DNA of 51,784 bases. It comes from Candidatus Pseudoscillospira falkowii (GTDB lineage: Bacteria; Bacillota; Clostridia; Oscillospirales; Oscillospiraceae). The DNA is taken from assembly GCA_904374485.1 (NCBI GenBank), contig CAJFFX010000004.1, positions 1 to 51,784 on the forward strand, written 5' to 3'. Made by a program: the position numbers and the translations under genes. Below, in pieces: positions 7,009 to 17,163 of this stretch (within the stretch, counting starts at the first letter, position 1; each line of letters begins with the position of its first letter). The notes beneath the pieces were generated by a model that saw only the letters and a program-made list of their open reading frames with translations, did not search any database and was not told the origin of the DNA.

Positions 7009-7620
7009 GTGAACAACAAATTTTTTCATGGACGAGTCGTGATTGCGGACCGTTCCACTTTTTTTCTTCTGCTGCTATCTGTTTGCTTTCTGGCTGGCGC
7101 GCTGATCGGCCACCGCTTTGCATATACGCAGGCGGTCTGCAGCGACGCAGGGCTGCAGGCCTATCTGGCCTCTTTTTTCTCCCTGCTGGAGCGCGGAGAT
7201 CTGCCGGGCGCGCCCTTTGGCGCTTCGCTGATCTCCTACTGCAAATACCCTGTCCTGATTTTTGTCCTTGGCTGTTTCGCGCCGGGGCGGGCCTTTTTTC
7301 CGATACTCTTTTTTTATCAGGGTTTTTCTGCCTCTTTTGCAGTTTCCGCCTTTTTATACGCCGCAGGGGAGCACGGCATCCTCCTGGCCTTTCTTCTTTT
7401 CGGTCTGCGCTGGGCGTTGGTGCTGCCGTGCTGCTTTTTCCTGGCGGCCGGCGCCGTATCCGCACCCTCACCGCCGCCGCACCGCCGCCACGAGGCGCAT
7501 CCCGCCGCGCCGGAGGGGCTGTACCGCGTTTCTCGCTTTGCGTTCTGCATCCTGCTGCTGGGCGTGGGCGCATTTTTTGAGCATTTGTTCCTGCCAGAAT
7601 GGCTCTGCATCGTTTCATAG
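7009..7620 (+). CDS. SpoIIM-like membrane protein
   Basis: A 203-aa integral membrane protein with about five hydrophobic segments. The segment LFFYQGFSASFAVSAFL resembles the conserved 'RGFxxGF' region of SpoIIM, which recruits SpoIID and SpoIIP for engulfment. The proline-rich loop SAPSPPPHRRHEAHP is unusual. Clostridia often carry spoIIM just upstream of xerD, as here. I choose GTG 7009: AGGTGA at 6995-7000 is 8 nt upstream, whereas the in-frame GTG at 6997 would lie inside that SD. The sequence is divergent, so the call rests on topology, one motif and context. Confidence 0.65.
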   Translation: MNNKFFHGRVVIADRSTFFLLLLSVCFLAGALIGHRFAYTQAVCSDAGLQAYLASFFSLLERGDLPGAPFGASLISYCKYPVLIFVLGCFAPGRAFFPILFFYQGFSASFAVSAFLYAAGEHGILLAFLLFGLRWALVLPCCFFLAAGAVSAPSPPPHRRHEAHPAAPEGLYRVSRFAFCILLLGVGAFFEHLFLPEWLCIVS

Positions 7621-7661
7621 GAAAAGAGAGCATTTCACCAAGAGAGAGAGGGAAAAGGCCG

Positions 7662-8549
7662 ATGACAGATTACATAGACGGCTACAAGCAATATCTGTCC
7701 GAGGAGCGCCACGCGTCCGCCAACACGCTGAGTTCCTACCTGCGCGACGTCCGTCAGTTCCTGGCGTATCTCCAGTCCGTCGGAACGCGCTCCGTGCTGC
7801 AGGCAGCCGCGTCGGACATCGAAGAATATATGCGCTGGATGACGGGGCGGGGCAAATCCGCCGCCACGGTGACGCGCTCTGTCGCATCGCTGAAGTCTTA
7901 TTATCATTACCTCGTGCTGGAAGGCCGGCTGAAGAAGAATCCCGTCCAGGACGTCACACCTCTGAAGGTCAAGCGCCATCTGCCGCAGATCCTCACCGGC
8001 AAGGAGGTGGAGCTCTTCCTGGAGCAGCCTCAGTGCGTCGACGCCAAGGGCTACCGGGATCACGCAATGCTGGAACTGCTCTACGCCACCGGGATCCGCG
8101 TCAGCGAGCTCATTGCCCTGGACGTGTCGGACCTCAATCTGAGCGCCGGCATCATCCATTGCGCCGGCAAATCAAAGGAGCGCGTCATCCCGCTGTACCC
8201 GGCCGCTATCAAGGCACTGCGCGACTATGTGGAGGAGATCCGTCCGAGCATGATCGCCGCGCCGGATGAAACAGCGCTGTTCGTCAATATGAACGGCGAG
8301 CGGATGAGCCGCCAGGGATTCTGGAAAATCATCAAGTATTATCAGCAGAAAGCGCAGATCGACAAGGATATCACGCCCCACACCCTCCGCCATTCCTTTG
8401 CGGCCCATCTTCTGGAAAACGGCGCAGACCTGCGCTCGATCCAGGAAATGCTGGGGCATGCAGACATCTCTTCGACCCAGATCTATGCGAATCTGATCAG
8501 CCAAAAGCTCAAGGACGTCTACAACAAAGCCCATCCCCGCGCCATATAA
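7662..8549 (+). CDS. xerD: Tyrosine recombinase XerD
   Basis: Site-specific recombinase that, with XerC, resolves chromosome dimers at dif. Of 295 aa, the N-terminal SAM-like core-binding domain (residues 1-90, SANTLSSYLRDVRQFLAYL) is followed by the catalytic domain with Arg in ATGIRVSEL, Lys in GKSKERVIPL, HTLRHSFAAHLL, and GHADISSTQIY containing the nucleophilic Tyr. The ATG at 7662 has an AGAGAGGG SD and fits the family N-terminus. It follows the spoIIM-like gene by 41 nt and ends at a bidirectional terminator. Confidence 0.92.
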   Translation: MTDYIDGYKQYLSEERHASANTLSSYLRDVRQFLAYLQSVGTRSVLQAAASDIEEYMRWMTGRGKSAATVTRSVASLKSYYHYLVLEGRLKKNPVQDVTPLKVKRHLPQILTGKEVELFLEQPQCVDAKGYRDHAMLELLYATGIRVSELIALDVSDLNLSAGIIHCAGKSKERVIPLYPAAIKALRDYVEEIRPSMIAAPDETALFVNMNGERMSRQGFWKIIKYYQQKAQIDKDITPHTLRHSFAAHLLENGADLRSIQEMLGHADISSTQIYANLISQKLKDVYNKAHPRAI

Positions 8550-9144: not shown

Positions 9145-9657
9145 ATGCGGATCTTAGGCATCGATCCCGGCATCGCCACAGTGGGCTTCGGGATCGTTGA
9201 TTCCGAGCGCGGCAGCGCGCTGCACATGGTGCAGTACGGCGCGATCCTGACCGAGGCAGGGCTGCCGCTGGCCACGCGCCTCTTTCAGATCAATCACGAC
9301 CTGGAGGAGCTGATCTGCCGCTTTCATCCGGACGCCATGTCCGTGGAAGAATTGTTTTTCAACACCAATATCACCACTGGTATCGCCGTGGCCCACGGGC
9401 GCGGCATCATCCTGTACACGGCGGAAAAGCTCGGCGTTCCGATTTTCGAGTATACGCCGTCCCAGGTCAAACAGGCCGTCGTGGGATACGGAAAAGCAGA
9501 AAAACGCCAGGTCATGGATATGACGCGCCGGCTTCTGAAGCTGCGTACCGTGCCCCGGCCGGACGACGCCGCCGACGCGCTGGCGCTGGCCATCTGCCAT
9601 GCCCGTAGCACCACGTCTCTGCTCAAGCAGAATCCCCAGGCAAAGCCCACAGTGTAG
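9145..9657 (+). CDS. ruvC: Holliday junction endonuclease RuvC
   Basis: Resolves Holliday junctions by symmetric cleavage. The 170-aa protein has the acidic catalytic residues in place: Asp in ILGIDPGIATVGFG, Glu in MSVEELFF, and Asp residues in RPDDAADALALAICHA. SD GGGAGGG is 7 nt before the ATG. Its stop codon TAG overlaps the ruvA SD (TAGGAGG), so the two are translationally close. Confidence 0.97.
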   Translation: MRILGIDPGIATVGFGIVDSERGSALHMVQYGAILTEAGLPLATRLFQINHDLEELICRFHPDAMSVEELFFNTNITTGIAVAHGRGIILYTAEKLGVPIFEYTPSQVKQAVVGYGKAEKRQVMDMTRRLLKLRTVPRPDDAADALALAICHARSTTSLLKQNPQAKPTV

Positions 9658-9667
9658 GAGGAATCCC

Positions 9668-10258
9668 ATGTTTTATTATGTTGCTGGAACCGTGGCATAT
9701 ATGGAGCAGAATCTGGCCGTCATCGACTGCGGCGGTGTTGGCTACGCCTGTTTCACCACAAACAACACCCTGTCCCGCCTGCAGCAGGGAGGCCAGGCAA
9801 AGCTTTATACCTATCTCAACGTCAAGGAAGACGCCATGGATCTTTTCGGTTTTTACACCCAAAACGAGCTCAACAGCTTCAAGCTGCTGATCGGCGTATC
9901 CGGCGTGGGGCCGAAAGCGGCCCTGGCGATCTTGTCCTCCAGCACGCCGGAGCAGCTGGCGCTGGCCATCGCCACCGGGGACGAGCGCGTGCTGACCGCC
10001 GCGCCCGGCATCGGCAAAAAAATCGCCCAGCGCATCATCTTGGAACTGAAGGACAAGCTGGCCAAGGAAGACCTGTCCGGCGTCCGGCCAGGGAGATCCG
10101 CGGCGCCCACCGGCACCAAGACCGCCGAGGCTGTTTCCGCACTGATGGTGCTCGGTTATTCTCAGCAGGAAGTCAGCGCGGCGCTCAAAGGCATCGACGC
10201 AGACGCGCTGCCCCTGGAAGACATTGTCCGCCAGGCGCTGCGCCGGATGGTCAAATAA
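9668..10258 (+). CDS. ruvA: Holliday junction DNA helicase subunit RuvA
   Basis: Tetrameric junction-binding subunit of the RuvAB branch-migration complex. The 196-aa protein starts MFYYVAGTVAYMEQNLAVIDCGGVGY (OB-fold domain), continues with helix-hairpin-helix motifs (GVSGVGPKAALAIL, APGIGKKIAQRIILELKDKL), and ends in the flexible domain III that contacts RuvB (EAVSALMVLGYSQQEVSAAL). ATG 9668 is chosen over upstream in-frame starts because AGGAGG at 9656-9661 precedes it and the family N-terminus matches. Confidence 0.97.
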   Translation: MFYYVAGTVAYMEQNLAVIDCGGVGYACFTTNNTLSRLQQGGQAKLYTYLNVKEDAMDLFGFYTQNELNSFKLLIGVSGVGPKAALAILSSSTPEQLALAIATGDERVLTAAPGIGKKIAQRIILELKDKLAKEDLSGVRPGRSAAPTGTKTAEAVSALMVLGYSQQEVSAALKGIDADALPLEDIVRQALRRMVK

Positions 10259-10303: not shown

Positions 10304-11374
10304 TTGAGCATTGATTACGGGCACGATATCACTGAAGAGCCCCTGGTTACCAAAACACTGCTGAACGAAGATCTGCGCAACGAAGTTTCTCTGCGCCCCC
10401 ACACGCTGGAGGAATACATCGGCCAGTCGAAGGCCAAGGAGAATCTGCGCATTTTTATCGAAGCGGCCAAACAGCGGACCGAGCCGCTGGACCATGTGCT
10501 GCTCCACGGCCCCCCCGGTCTGGGCAAGACCACTTTGGCCGGCATCATCGCCGCCGAAATGGGCGTGAACATCCGCATCACCTCCGGCCCGGCCATCGAA
10601 AAAGCCGGCGATCTGGCCGCGCTGCTGACAAATCTGAACGAAAACGACATCCTGTTTGTCGACGAGATCCACCGCCTGAATCGCAGCGTGGAGGAGATCC
10701 TGTATCCCGCCATGGAGGACTATGCCATCGATATCATCATCGGCAAGGGCCCTTCCGCAAACTCCATCCGCCTGGATCTTCCCAAATTTACGCTGGTGGG
10801 CGCCACCACGCGGGCCGGACAGCTGTCGGCGCCGCTGCGGGACCGCTTCGGCGTCACGCTGCGCCTGGAGCTCTACACCCCCGAGGAATTGGCCCTCATC
10901 GTCACCCGCAGTGCCGGGATCCTGGACGTGCCCATCGAGCCCCAGGGCGCCTTTGAGATCGCGTCGCGCTCCCGCGGCACGCCGCGTATCGCCAACCGGA
11001 TGCTCCGGCGGGTGCGCGATTTTGCGCAGGTGCGCGGCAACGGCGTGATCACAAAGGAGATCGCCGACCTGGCGCTGACGGCGCTGGAGATCGATTATCT
11101 GGGTCTGGATGCGGTGGACCGCCGGATGATGCGCGCCATCATCACCAATTACGGCGGCGGCCCCGTGGGCCTGGAAACGCTGGCGGCCACCATCGGCGAA
11201 GAAGCCGTAACGCTGGAAGACGTATATGAGCCTTATCTGATGCAGATGGGCTTTTTGACCCGCACGCCCCGGGGGCGCTGCGTGACGCACAAAGCCTATG
11301 AGCATCTGCACATTCCGCTCAGCGGCGGAAGGGAAGGGGCCATGGATCAGCTGTCCATCGACCGCGAGCTTTAA
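10304..11374 (+). CDS. ruvB: Holliday junction branch migration helicase RuvB
   Basis: AAA+ motor of branch migration, 356 aa. Motifs are Walker [10 protein letters not shown], Walker [11 protein letters not shown], sensor region [18 protein letters not shown], and the C-terminal winged helix ([33 protein letters not shown]). It starts with TTG (SD AAGGAT at 10289-10294). It is the last gene of ruvCAB, and glmM follows after 43 nt. Confidence 0.97.
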
Positions 11375-13891: not shown

Positions 13892-13920
13892 TTGACAATC
13901 TGCACGCACTGTGGTATCTT
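13892..13920 (+). promoter_or_regulatory. Consensus promoter of the second recombinase gene
   Basis: TTGACA at 13892-13897 and TATCTT at 13915-13920 are 17 bp apart. The -10 overlaps the inverted repeat at 13918-13955. Confidence 0.8.
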
Positions 13921-13955
13921 TAACTCGGTTAAATTAATGTTTAACCGAGTTAAAG
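13918..13955 (+). promoter_or_regulatory. Perfect 16-bp inverted repeat (operator or recombinase core site)
   Basis: The arm 13918-13933 (CTTTAACTCGGTTAAA) is an exact inverted copy of 13940-13955, with a 6-bp spacer TTAATG. Each arm is itself palindromic (TTTAAC-TCG-GTTAAA), so there are two 15-bp palindromes centred 21 bp apart. It covers the promoter -10 and the start of the transcript. Confidence 0.85.
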
Positions 13956-13990: not shown

Positions 13991-14989
13991 ATGGCAGCCG
14001 ATTACCGCCACGAAGCGCCGGAATTGATCCGGGATTTCCTGCAGTATCACGAAACGATCCGCAACCACTCTGTGCGCACCGTCGACGCTTACTATGTCGA
14101 TCTGCGGCTGTTTTTCCGATACATCAAATGGGATCATGGTTTGGTTCCGCAGGATACGCCCTTTGAGGAAATTTTGATCGACGACGTCGACCTGGATTTT
14201 ATCCGTGCCATCAAAAAAGCCGATATTTATAATTTTCTTTCCTGGCTTTCCCGGGATCGTCCCGGCAAAAAACAGCCCGGCCTGGGTGTCGCCGCCCGGG
14301 CGCGCAAGCTTGTTTCCGTCCGTTCCTTTTTTTCTTATCTCGAATTGAAGCGCAATTTGCTGGCGGTCAATCCTGCGGCGGATATCGACCCGCCGCGCCT
14401 GCGCAAGAGCCTGCCGGTCTATCTGACGGAACCCGACGCCGAAAAACTCTTGGACGCCGTCCATGGGCCTTATGCGGAGCGCGATTTCTGCATGCTCCTG
14501 CTGCTGCTCAGCTGCGGCATGCGGGTCTCTGAACTGGTGGGCCTCGATATCACGGATATCACCGACGAAACGGTTCGCGTCCTCGGAAAAGGCAATAAAG
14601 AGCGTATTCTTTATCTGAATCCCGCCTGCAGGCAGGCCATCGCAGACTATCTCGCTGTTCGCGATGGAACAAATGTTCTCCAAAAGGATAAGAACGCTTT
14701 GTTTTTATCCCGCAACCACCGGCGCGTCAGCGTGGATACCGTGGAAAACCTGGTCAAAAAAGCGTCGCTGACCGCCGGATTGGATGCCAAGCGGTATTCC
14801 CCCCACAAACTACGCCACACCGCAGCCACACTCATGCTCCAGAACGGCGTGGACGTGCGCACGCTGCAGGAAGTCCTGGGCCACGAAAGCTTGAATACCA
14901 CCCAGATCTACACCCATATCGACAATGACGGCCTGCGCACGGCTGCCCGGGCTAATCCCATTGGAAAGTATAAAAAAAAGCGCGAATGA
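13991..14989 (+). CDS. Tyrosine recombinase (XerC-like)
   Basis: A 332-aa site-specific recombinase. The N-terminal core-binding domain (ELIRDFLQYHETIRNHSVRTVDAYYVDLRLFFRYI) carries a charged insertion around DDVDLDFIRAIKKADIYNFL. The catalytic domain has Arg in CGMRVSELVG, Lys in GKGNKERILYL, HKLRHTAATLML and GHESLNTTQIYTH with the nucleophilic Tyr. It is distinct from the XerD at 7662 and could be the XerC partner or a dedicated recombinase. ATG 13991 follows AAGGAGG (13973-13979). An upstream ATG at 13938 lies inside the operator and has no SD. The gene is monocistronic between two terminators. Confidence 0.88.
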   Translation: MAADYRHEAPELIRDFLQYHETIRNHSVRTVDAYYVDLRLFFRYIKWDHGLVPQDTPFEEILIDDVDLDFIRAIKKADIYNFLSWLSRDRPGKKQPGLGVAARARKLVSVRSFFSYLELKRNLLAVNPAADIDPPRLRKSLPVYLTEPDAEKLLDAVHGPYAERDFCMLLLLLSCGMRVSELVGLDITDITDETVRVLGKGNKERILYLNPACRQAIADYLAVRDGTNVLQKDKNALFLSRNHRRVSVDTVENLVKKASLTAGLDAKRYSPHKLRHTAATLMLQNGVDVRTLQEVLGHESLNTTQIYTHIDNDGLRTAARANPIGKYKKKRE

Positions 14990-15059: not shown

Positions 15060-16442
15060 TTATTTTCCGAGGACCGCCCGGAGCGCCTGACCCACATTTT
15101 TGACCCGGATCAATTCCAATCCATCGATCTGCAGCAGCTTGTCCGTCCGCTGGGCTGGAATGACACATTTTTGGAAGCCCAGGCGCCGGATCTCCGAAAG
15201 CCGCTGGCCGATATTCTGCACGCTGCGCAGTTCGCCGCTCAGGCCGACTTCACCGATGGCCGCCAGCGTATTCTCCACGGGTGCATCCAAATAACTGGAT
15301 GCCAGCGCAATGATCACGGCCAGATCCGCCGAAGGCTCGTCCAGCGTCAGACCGCCGACCACATTGAGATAGGCGTCGCAGTTGGAAAGCTTCAGCCCGC
15401 CGCGCTTTTCAAGCACCGCCATCAGCATGGCGCTGCGGTTATAATCCAGCCCGTTGCTCGTCCGTTTCGGATTGGAGTAGACCGTCGGCGCGATCAGCGC
15501 CTGGATCTCCGCCAGGATCGGCCGCGCGCCCTCCATAGCGCAGGTCACGCAGGTGCCCGGCGCATCCTCCGGCCGGCCGGACAGGAGCGTTTCCGACGGG
15601 TTGGGTACTTCGGCCAGGCCCCGGTCCGCCATTTCAAAAACGCCGATCTCGTTGGTGGCGCCAAAACGGTTTTTGGCCGCCCGCAGGATCCGGTAGCTCA
15701 TGTGTTGGTCGCCTTCAAAATACAGCACACAGTCCACCATATGCTCCAGGACCTTCGGGCCAGCAATGGAGCCTTCTTTATTGACGTGGCCGATCACGAA
15801 AACCGTAACCCCCTCCCCTTTTGCCAGCTGCATCAGCGCCATGGTGCAGTCCTTGACCTGGCCAATGCTCCCGGGCGGGGTGTCCAGCGTGTCGTTGCAC
15901 ATGGTTTGGATGGAGTCGATGATCAAAACGCTGGGCTGCAGGTCGTGGACCGCATCCAGAATATCCGCCAGATTCGTCTCCGACAAAACATAGAGATTAG
16001 GATTTGCGACCTGCAGCCGCTCGGCGCGCATTTTAAGCTGATGCTCCGACTCTTCGCCGGAAACATACAGCACGTCGCCCGTGCTGCAGAGCTGGGCGCA
16101 GATCTGCAGCATCAGCGTGGATTTTCCGATGCCGGGGGCACCGCCCACCAGTACCAGCGACCCTTTTACCGCGCCGCCGCCCAGTACACGATCCAATTCA
16201 CCCATGCCGGTCGGAAAGCGCAGCTCCCCCGCCGTCGTCAGCTCTGTAATAGGTTTTGCCTTGCGCAGGCCGAAGGACGCCGCCGAACCGCCGCGGTGGG
16301 CAGCGGAGCTTCCGCGGCGCTTTTCTTCCGCCGGGCGCTCCACAATGCTGTTCCAGGCGCCGCAGGCCGGGCACTTTCCGGCCCATTTCGGAAATTCGTT
16401 GCCGCATTCCGTACAGTAAAACGTTGTTTTATAATTCTTCAT
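15060..16442 (-). CDS. radA: DNA repair protein RadA
   Basis: RecA-like ATPase promoting branch migration in recombinational repair. The 460-aa protein has an N-terminal C4 zinc finger (CTECGNEFPKWAGKCPAC), Walker A GGAPGIGKST, Walker B SVLIIDSIQT, the RadA-specific KNRFG motif (KNRFGATNEIG), and a C-terminal Lon-protease-like domain (GGLTLDEPSADLAVIIALASS). I choose ATG 16442 (MKNYKTTFYC): GGAG lies 9 nt upstream, and the in-frame ATG at 16457 adds only MERRS. The start overlaps the end of cwlD by 14 nt. Confidence 0.96.
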   Translation of the reverse strand: MKNYKTTFYCTECGNEFPKWAGKCPACGAWNSIVERPAEEKRRGSSAAHRGGSAASFGLRKAKPITELTTAGELRFPTGMGELDRVLGGGAVKGSLVLVGGAPGIGKSTLMLQICAQLCSTGDVLYVSGEESEHQLKMRAERLQVANPNLYVLSETNLADILDAVHDLQPSVLIIDSIQTMCNDTLDTPPGSIGQVKDCTMALMQLAKGEGVTVFVIGHVNKEGSIAGPKVLEHMVDCVLYFEGDQHMSYRILRAAKNRFGATNEIGVFEMADRGLAEVPNPSETLLSGRPEDAPGTCVTCAMEGARPILAEIQALIAPTVYSNPKRTSNGLDYNRSAMLMAVLEKRGGLKLSNCDAYLNVVGGLTLDEPSADLAVIIALASSYLDAPVENTLAAIGEVGLSGELRSVQNIGQRLSEIRRLGFQKCVIPAQRTDKLLQIDGLELIRVKNVGQALRAVLGK

Positions 16443-17163
16443 GCTCCGCCGCTCCATTCGTTGTATTCAGGACCCCCGCCGCGATCACGACCGCCAGCTC
16501 GGTTTGATAGGACGCGCTCTTCAGCGCCTGTGTCTCCGCCGGATTGGACAGGAAGCCGCATTCAATCAAAATCGCCGGGCACCGGACCTGCTGCATCAGA
16601 TAGACCGAATCGTCGATCGCTTTCTCGTTTTTCTCGTTGCCCTGGTTGACCGCCTGATTAAGGGCCTCCTGTACCGCGCCCGCCATGGTTTCCGCCCCGT
16701 TCGCCGCATTGTAGAACACCTGGGCCCCGTGGACCGACGGCACGGCAGGAAGACTGTTCTGATGAATGCTGATCAGATACGCGTCGTCATAGCGATTGAT
16801 CTGCGCCGCCCGGTTCTTCAGATCGGAGCGCTTCTTCTCCCGCAGGGTGGCGGAACCCTCATCGTAAACGGCGTTTTCATTCCTGCGGGTCATCACGGTC
16901 TTCTTTCCGGCAAATGCCAGGACCCCTTCGACCCGCCGGGCTACGGCAAGATTCAGGTCGCTTTCGACGGTCCCGTCCTGCGCCACCGCGCCGCCGTCTT
17001 CCCCTCCGTGGCCGGCGTCAATGATATAAACTGCCGCCGCTTCTGCGCCCATCCGAAAAACAGGAACTAAAGTTCGATTACTGTATATGATGATACCGCC
17101 AATCGCCGCAATAGTCAAGCACAGAACCAGAAAAATCCGCTTTGCACGCACCACAAGAAACAT
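16429..17163 (-). CDS. cwlD: N-acetylmuramoyl-L-alanine amidase CwlD
   Basis: Spore-cortex amidase that starts muramic-delta-lactam formation, marking the cortex for germination enzymes. The 244-aa protein has an N-terminal membrane anchor or signal (RIFLVLCLTIAAIGGIIIY) and an Amidase_3 domain with zinc ligands in IIDAGHGGEDGG (His), TVESDLNL (Glu) and ISIHQNS (His), and the catalytic Glu in ILIECGFLSNP. SD GGGAGG. Its last codons overlap radA, so the two are co-transcribed. The family usually works with a separate GerS lipoprotein in Clostridia; none is seen here. Confidence 0.93.
   Translation of the reverse strand: MFLVVRAKRIFLVLCLTIAAIGGIIIYSNRTLVPVFRMGAEAAAVYIIDAGHGGEDGGAVAQDGTVESDLNLAVARRVEGVLAFAGKKTVMTRRNENAVYDEGSATLREKKRSDLKNRAAQINRYDDAYLISIHQNSLPAVPSVHGAQVFYNAANGAETMAGAVQEALNQAVNQGNEKNEKAIDDSVYLMQQVRCPAILIECGFLSNPAETQALKSASYQTELAVVIAAGVLNTTNGAAEHEEL

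Follow-up and report, generated by a model that had tools for sequence, protein, structure and literature searches.

A probable dif site with mirror-image arms beside a diverged Xer recombinase gene in Candidatus Pseudoscillospira falkowii and its relatives

The inverted repeat at positions 13918–13955 of the window (the whole 51 784 nt stretch of Candidatus Pseudoscillospira falkowii DNA that was analysed) very probably holds the dif site of the chromosome, with the Xer-like tyrosine recombinase encoded at 13991–14989 taking part in the reaction. This recombinase is rather likely to act without XerD. The first-pass annotation had offered two readings of the repeat, a double operator for a dimeric repressor or an Xer-type core site. 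The second is strongly supported by the single copy, a switch in GC skew at the site, the 6 bp spacer, the arms of about 12 bp and the occurrence of the site away from the gene in 10 relatives; further support at the sequence level comes from co-variation of the arms, the usual linkage to the recombinase gene and the presence of an FtsK gamma domain. The features concerned are as follows.

13892–13920, forward strand: sigma-70-like promoter TTGACA-N17-TATCTT, of which the −10 hexamer runs into the inverted repeat
13918–13955, no strand assigned: whole inverted repeat with the proposed dif site inside, CTTTAACTCGGTTAAA-TTAATG-TTTAACCGAGTTAAAG, perfect 16 bp arms
13922–13933, forward strand: putative left recombinase half-site of 12 bp, AACTCGGTTAAA, delimited by the symmetry in relatives, which fades after about 12–13 bp
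13934–13939, no strand assigned: 6 bp central region TTAATG, the putative strand-exchange region
13940–13951, reverse strand: putative right recombinase half-site of 12 bp, inverted, with the same symmetry limit of about 12–13 bp
13991–14989, forward strand: Xer-like tyrosine recombinase of 332 aa, nearest to the XerC and XerD models and below every curated NCBIfam Xer cut-off
7599–8549, forward strand: canonical XerD, the second Xer of the genome and a possible partner (346.7 bits, cut-off 329.6)

The perfect 16 bp arms and 6 bp spacer previously described were confirmed, as were the overlap with the −10 hexamer (the first three bases of the left arm are shared with TATCTT), the palindrome TTTAAC-N3-GTTAAA within each arm and the 21 bp distance between the two palindrome centres. 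The repeat ends 35 bp ahead of the recombinase gene start at 13991. When the window was simulated 60 times under a first-order Markov model, no perfect repeat with arms of at least 16 bp and a spacer of 3–20 bp appeared; the real window holds four of them, that at 13918–13955 included, so that the length of the repeat alone is not special. Its special features are its position, geometry and conservation. The genome-wide motif count that had been proposed as a check gave no second exact match to TTTAACNNNGTTAAA in the 1.89 Mb genome.

Among 99 genomes (own genome included), the full double motif with at most two mismatches was found only in the own genome and in G002, a sister species of the same genus. 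Comparison with related genomes had also been proposed, and in G002 the orthologous gene, the product of which is 81 % identical to the 13991–14989 protein, is likewise preceded closely by the repeat and by the two promoter hexamers. The central hexamer there is TTAATA, compared with TTAATG in the window, the 17 bp promoter spacer has diverged and the DNA further upstream, judged by eye, looks unrelated. Retention of the repeat and the hexamers while their surroundings diverged indicates that the element is under selection.

In the family as a whole, the site usually takes the form NNNNNAACAAAA-TAAAAA-TTTTGTTNNNNN, with 12 bp inverted arms around a 6 bp spacer; the present genus departs from the family core in having GGTTAAA in place of AACAAAA. 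The exact core AACAAAATNNNNATTTTGTT occurred in 78 of 120 Oscillospiraceae genomes, whilst a reversed-core control was found in one of the 120. As expected of a dif site, there was one copy per chromosome, the core being single in all 78 genomes and the window's own motif being unique. An orthologue of the recombinase (E ≤ 1e-40) was present, once per genome, in 50 of 61 family genomes, which together with G002 gave 51 orthologue loci. The site lay within 1.5 kb upstream of the recombinase gene in 37 of these loci (35 from an automated scan for inverted repeats with a 6 bp spacer, plus two imperfect sites). For 10 of the 14 loci lacking an upstream site the exact core was located elsewhere in the genome, at 76 kb from the recombinase gene in G009, at 32 kb in G017 and on other contigs in G004, G007, G011, G026, G027, G042, G044 and G059. 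No site was found for the remaining four loci (G008, G013, G037 and G100, the last of these being XerD-free). The canonical Firmicutes dif carries the XerD-arm pattern TTATGTNAA. This arm was absent at the site, and a search of the 120 family genomes for the canonical Firmicutes-type dif found TANAANNNNNNTTATGTNAA 43 times, compared with 44 matches for the control.

The replication terminus coincides with the maximum of the cumulative GC skew, so that skew to the left of it exceeds skew to the right in either contig orientation. GC skew was higher on the left of the site than on the right in all 22 genomes compared, which had been picked for long contigs and unlinked sites, with the window and the sister species added, and of which three had short right flanks (5.2–8.1 kb). 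Five of these sites were unlinked from the recombinase gene (G009, G011, G017, G042 and G044). The same comparison elsewhere in three of those contigs gave left above right at 47 of 105, 45 of 80 and 38 of 73 positions. Around the repeat of the sister species the values were +0.103 (left) and −0.091 (right). In two chromosomes assembled as one contig, sampled skew was mostly positive before the site and mostly negative after it, with the change of sign at or near it, weak values in its vicinity and some exceptions. The distance from the peak of cumulative skew to the site was 18 kb in G006, 8 kb in G017 and 41 kb in G009; in the last of these, the local switch in skew falls at the site (+0.060/−0.032), and the recombinase gene, 76 kb distant, shows none (−0.060/−0.024). 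The switch in skew indicates that the site marks the replication terminus. In the window itself the values were −0.012 (left) and −0.061 (right), a difference in strength with no change of sign, and the GC skew of the window taken by itself is uninformative about the terminus.

Pairing between the two arms was examined in 55 distinct sites for which the inner core was the sole selection criterion, an earlier set having been chosen partly for symmetry. That earlier set had left out 10 of 55 named loci at which no convincing site was seen (L165, L171, L187, L192, L197, L202, L203, L205, L214 and L218). At arm positions 8–12, 264 of 275 cells were paired (53, 55, 55, 53 and 48 of the 55 sites at positions 8, 9, 10, 11 and 12, respectively), compared with a mean of 167.9 and a largest value of 193 in 5000 whole-arm shuffles; the sites are related by descent and the paired cells are not independent events. 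Each of these positions showed three pair types, and the occurrence of several complementary pair types per position implies that the two arms changed in concert on more than one occasion. Pairing was still raised at position 13 (33 of 55 sites, expectation 26 %) and was near chance from position 14 on. Co-varying arms are what a recombinase binding both of them would impose, and the 12–13 bp limit of symmetry would correspond to the footprint of one recombinase protomer, or Xer half-site. In a dif site, a 6 bp centre separates two inverted half-sites, each about 11 bp long, a layout matched here by symmetry that fades after 12–13 bp. G006, L195, L196 and L199 are among the few sites that are asymmetric near the spacer. 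In the less symmetric sites of L195, L196, L199, L200 and L016, one side reads GCATAA and the opposite one TTTAAC or TTTAGC, which resembles a canonical XerC arm; these sites perhaps represent a transition between two-protein and one-protein sites.

The 13991–14989 product carries a phage-integrase catalytic domain, and what we take, by eye against the known motif, to be the tyrosine-recombinase residues R, K, HxxR, H and Y. It scored 229.7 bits against the XerC model TIGR02224 (cut-off 335.15) and 215.2 bits against the XerD model (cut-off 330). The idea that it is the sole Xer of this genome was rejected, canonical XerD being encoded at 7599–8549. XerD above the cut-off was found in 44 of the 61 family genomes (window included), often within tens of kb of the site, and XerC above the cut-off in none of the 61. 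Four genomes of 95–100 % completeness (G046, G048, G100 and G106) possess the recombinase and have no XerD above the cut-off; three of them have the site, and none was found in G100. In a tree of 35 proteins the five XerD rows stood apart from the rest with 100/100 support, the tree having been built without XerS, XerH and XerA and with long branches that meet, so that it gives no placement against those families. An FtsK gamma domain was present in all 11 genomes searched, this genome included.

These results bear directly on the strongest alternative, that the site is dif and that a diverged XerC (13991–14989) and the canonical XerD (7599–8549) bind one arm each. The frequency of XerD in the family and its proximity to the site in many genomes speak for such a pair, as does the lack of any XerC above the cut-off, which would leave the 13991–14989 protein as a possible XerC counterpart. 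Against this, changes in one arm are matched by complementary changes in the other, the pattern to be expected when a single protein recognises the two, whereas the dyad symmetry of the E. coli and B. subtilis dif sites is described as partial or imperfect, and the four near-complete genomes have the recombinase and no XerD above the cut-off. A two-protein site is considered rather unlikely. Because the arms co-vary and near-complete genomes without XerD exist, the favoured reading is that both arms are served by a single recombinase, as they are in XerS/difSL, XerH/difH and XerL; this appears more likely than a pair of XerC-like protein and XerD.

The dif site would consist of a 6 bp exchange region at the terminus, flanked by a pair of inverted half-sites each about 12 bp long, and under the favoured single-recombinase reading the 13991–14989 recombinase would most likely bind both half-sites as identical protomers, acting alone. 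In a dimeric chromosome, the two dif copies would synapse at the septum, FtsK would be expected to activate the recombinase tetramer and two strand exchanges would convert the dimer to monomers. Recombination at the site would resolve chromosome dimers between sister copies; no sign of promoter inversion was seen. Since the site overlaps the promoter, the bound recombinase may plausibly also repress its own gene in this genus, and if so its expression there would be coupled to occupancy of the terminus site.

Regulation as the main function, with a dimeric repressor (or the recombinase purely as regulator) occupying the self-palindromic arms as a double operator, is highly improbable. The site directly follows the −35 and −10 hexamers in both species of the genus, and the spacing of 21 bp between the arm centres would suit such an operator. 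However, self-palindromic 6+6 arms (13919–13933 and 13940–13954 in the window) are confined to this genus (two of 90 distinct sites), as is the 21 bp centre spacing, the motif has no second copy in this genome and a promoter directly precedes only six of the 32 linked sites, compared with one to five of 32 for slid controls, so a promoter ahead of the site is not a general feature. Many copies upstream of unrelated genes had been named as the observation that would favour an operator; none was seen, and in the 10 genomes in which it is unlinked from the gene the site is still present once only, and it coincides with the skew switch wherever this was examined. A site that remains single after parting from the promoter does not serve that promoter as its operator, and the unlinked terminus copies refute an operator as the sole function. 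Arm symmetry reaches 15–16 bp in this genus, past the usual 12–13 bp, and this extra symmetry, with the self-palindromy of the arms, possibly reflects an added operator function. A transcribed hairpin that would attenuate or terminate transcription within the recombinase mRNA leader is likewise highly improbable and was rejected as the main function, for although a terminator scan rated 13918–13955 as terminator-like (17 pairs, five of them G-C), the stem is AT-rich, the spacer is fixed and symmetry limited to 12–13 bp in relatives, sites are found outside the leader and the central hexamer can lie either way round (TAAAAA in 40 and TTTTTA in 20 of the 90 distinct sites).

Among known systems, the XerA of archaea is a single recombinase; the 13991–14989 protein scored 202.6 bits against its model, under the cut-off of 220. 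XerA has been described as an Xer acting at dif (PMC2958812). In the XerS/difSL system of streptococci and lactococci, described as one module, the recombinase gene adjoins a dif-like site (PMC5357621), and the gene studied here likewise lies immediately beside its site. The difSL site is reported to be 31 bp long with an 11 bp centre and imperfect arms (PMC5357621), unlike the 12-6-12 layout with symmetric co-varying arms found here; furthermore, canonical XerD is also encoded in this genome, and the protein reached 150 bits against the XerS equivalog NF003462 (cut-off 267). The Helicobacter XerH is described as a single recombinase with a cognate dif, difH (PMC3325230), and is remote in sequence from the 13991–14989 protein (66 bits in a PDB sequence search, compared with 129 for E. 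coli XerD). For the XerL/dif system of Legionellales, a lone, divergent recombinase that had escaped homology searches is described, together with a palindromic site at the terminus (PMC9765430); this system belongs to another phylum and the likeness is one of description. The canonical dif of XerC/XerD in E. coli and B. subtilis, as described, shares with the present site two half-sites around a 6 bp centre, a single copy at the terminus and the presence of FtsK gamma, and differs from it in that the XerD-arm pattern is unenriched in this family, the arms here are mirror images and the protein falls below both cut-offs.

The site extends beyond the family. In Tissierellia, whose orthologues are about 44 % identical, TTAGTCACAAAA-N6-TTTTGTGACTAA or a near form precedes the gene by 28–58 bp in eight of nine loci, the locus without a symmetric site being L214 of Peptoniphilus. 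A scan of the 55 named loci placed 41 above the score threshold, with L197, L201 and L218 doubtful by eye. No title or abstract in the literature searched dealt with dif, or with a lone Xer recombinase, in Oscillospiraceae or Tissierella, and the main text of a dif survey (PMC3025954) has no word starting with Oscill or Faecalibacterium. There is about an even chance that Oscillospiraceae and Tissierellia share a separate single-recombinase system for dimer resolution, with a diverged Xer, a mirror-symmetric co-evolving dif, XerD freed for other tasks or lost and, in the present genus, a role of the site as the operator of its own recombinase gene. The proposal would supply a dif site and its likely recombinase for a large family in which the canonical dif pattern is at control level. 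The 90 distinct sites, with arms that change together and mostly beside the gene, form a data set for recombinase–target co-evolution, and in draft assemblies from uncultured bacteria the site would serve as a terminus marker. It is also a possible landing place for Xer-exploiting elements.

Viral contigs contained at least 120 stretches with the family core, a 16-base AT-rich palindrome that is too common there to be evidence of integration at dif; the window-specific pattern had no match in them. G014 (about 95 % complete) had no match to the recombinase (E ≤ 1e-40) or to XerD/XerC (E ≤ 1e-50), and FtsK gamma was present. A cluster of recombination genes lies at the terminus within 9 kb of the dif site, comprising XerD (7599–8549), RuvA (9599–10258), RuvB (10304–11374) and an ATPase (15060–16457) that, from its domain layout, is presumably RadA/Sms-like.
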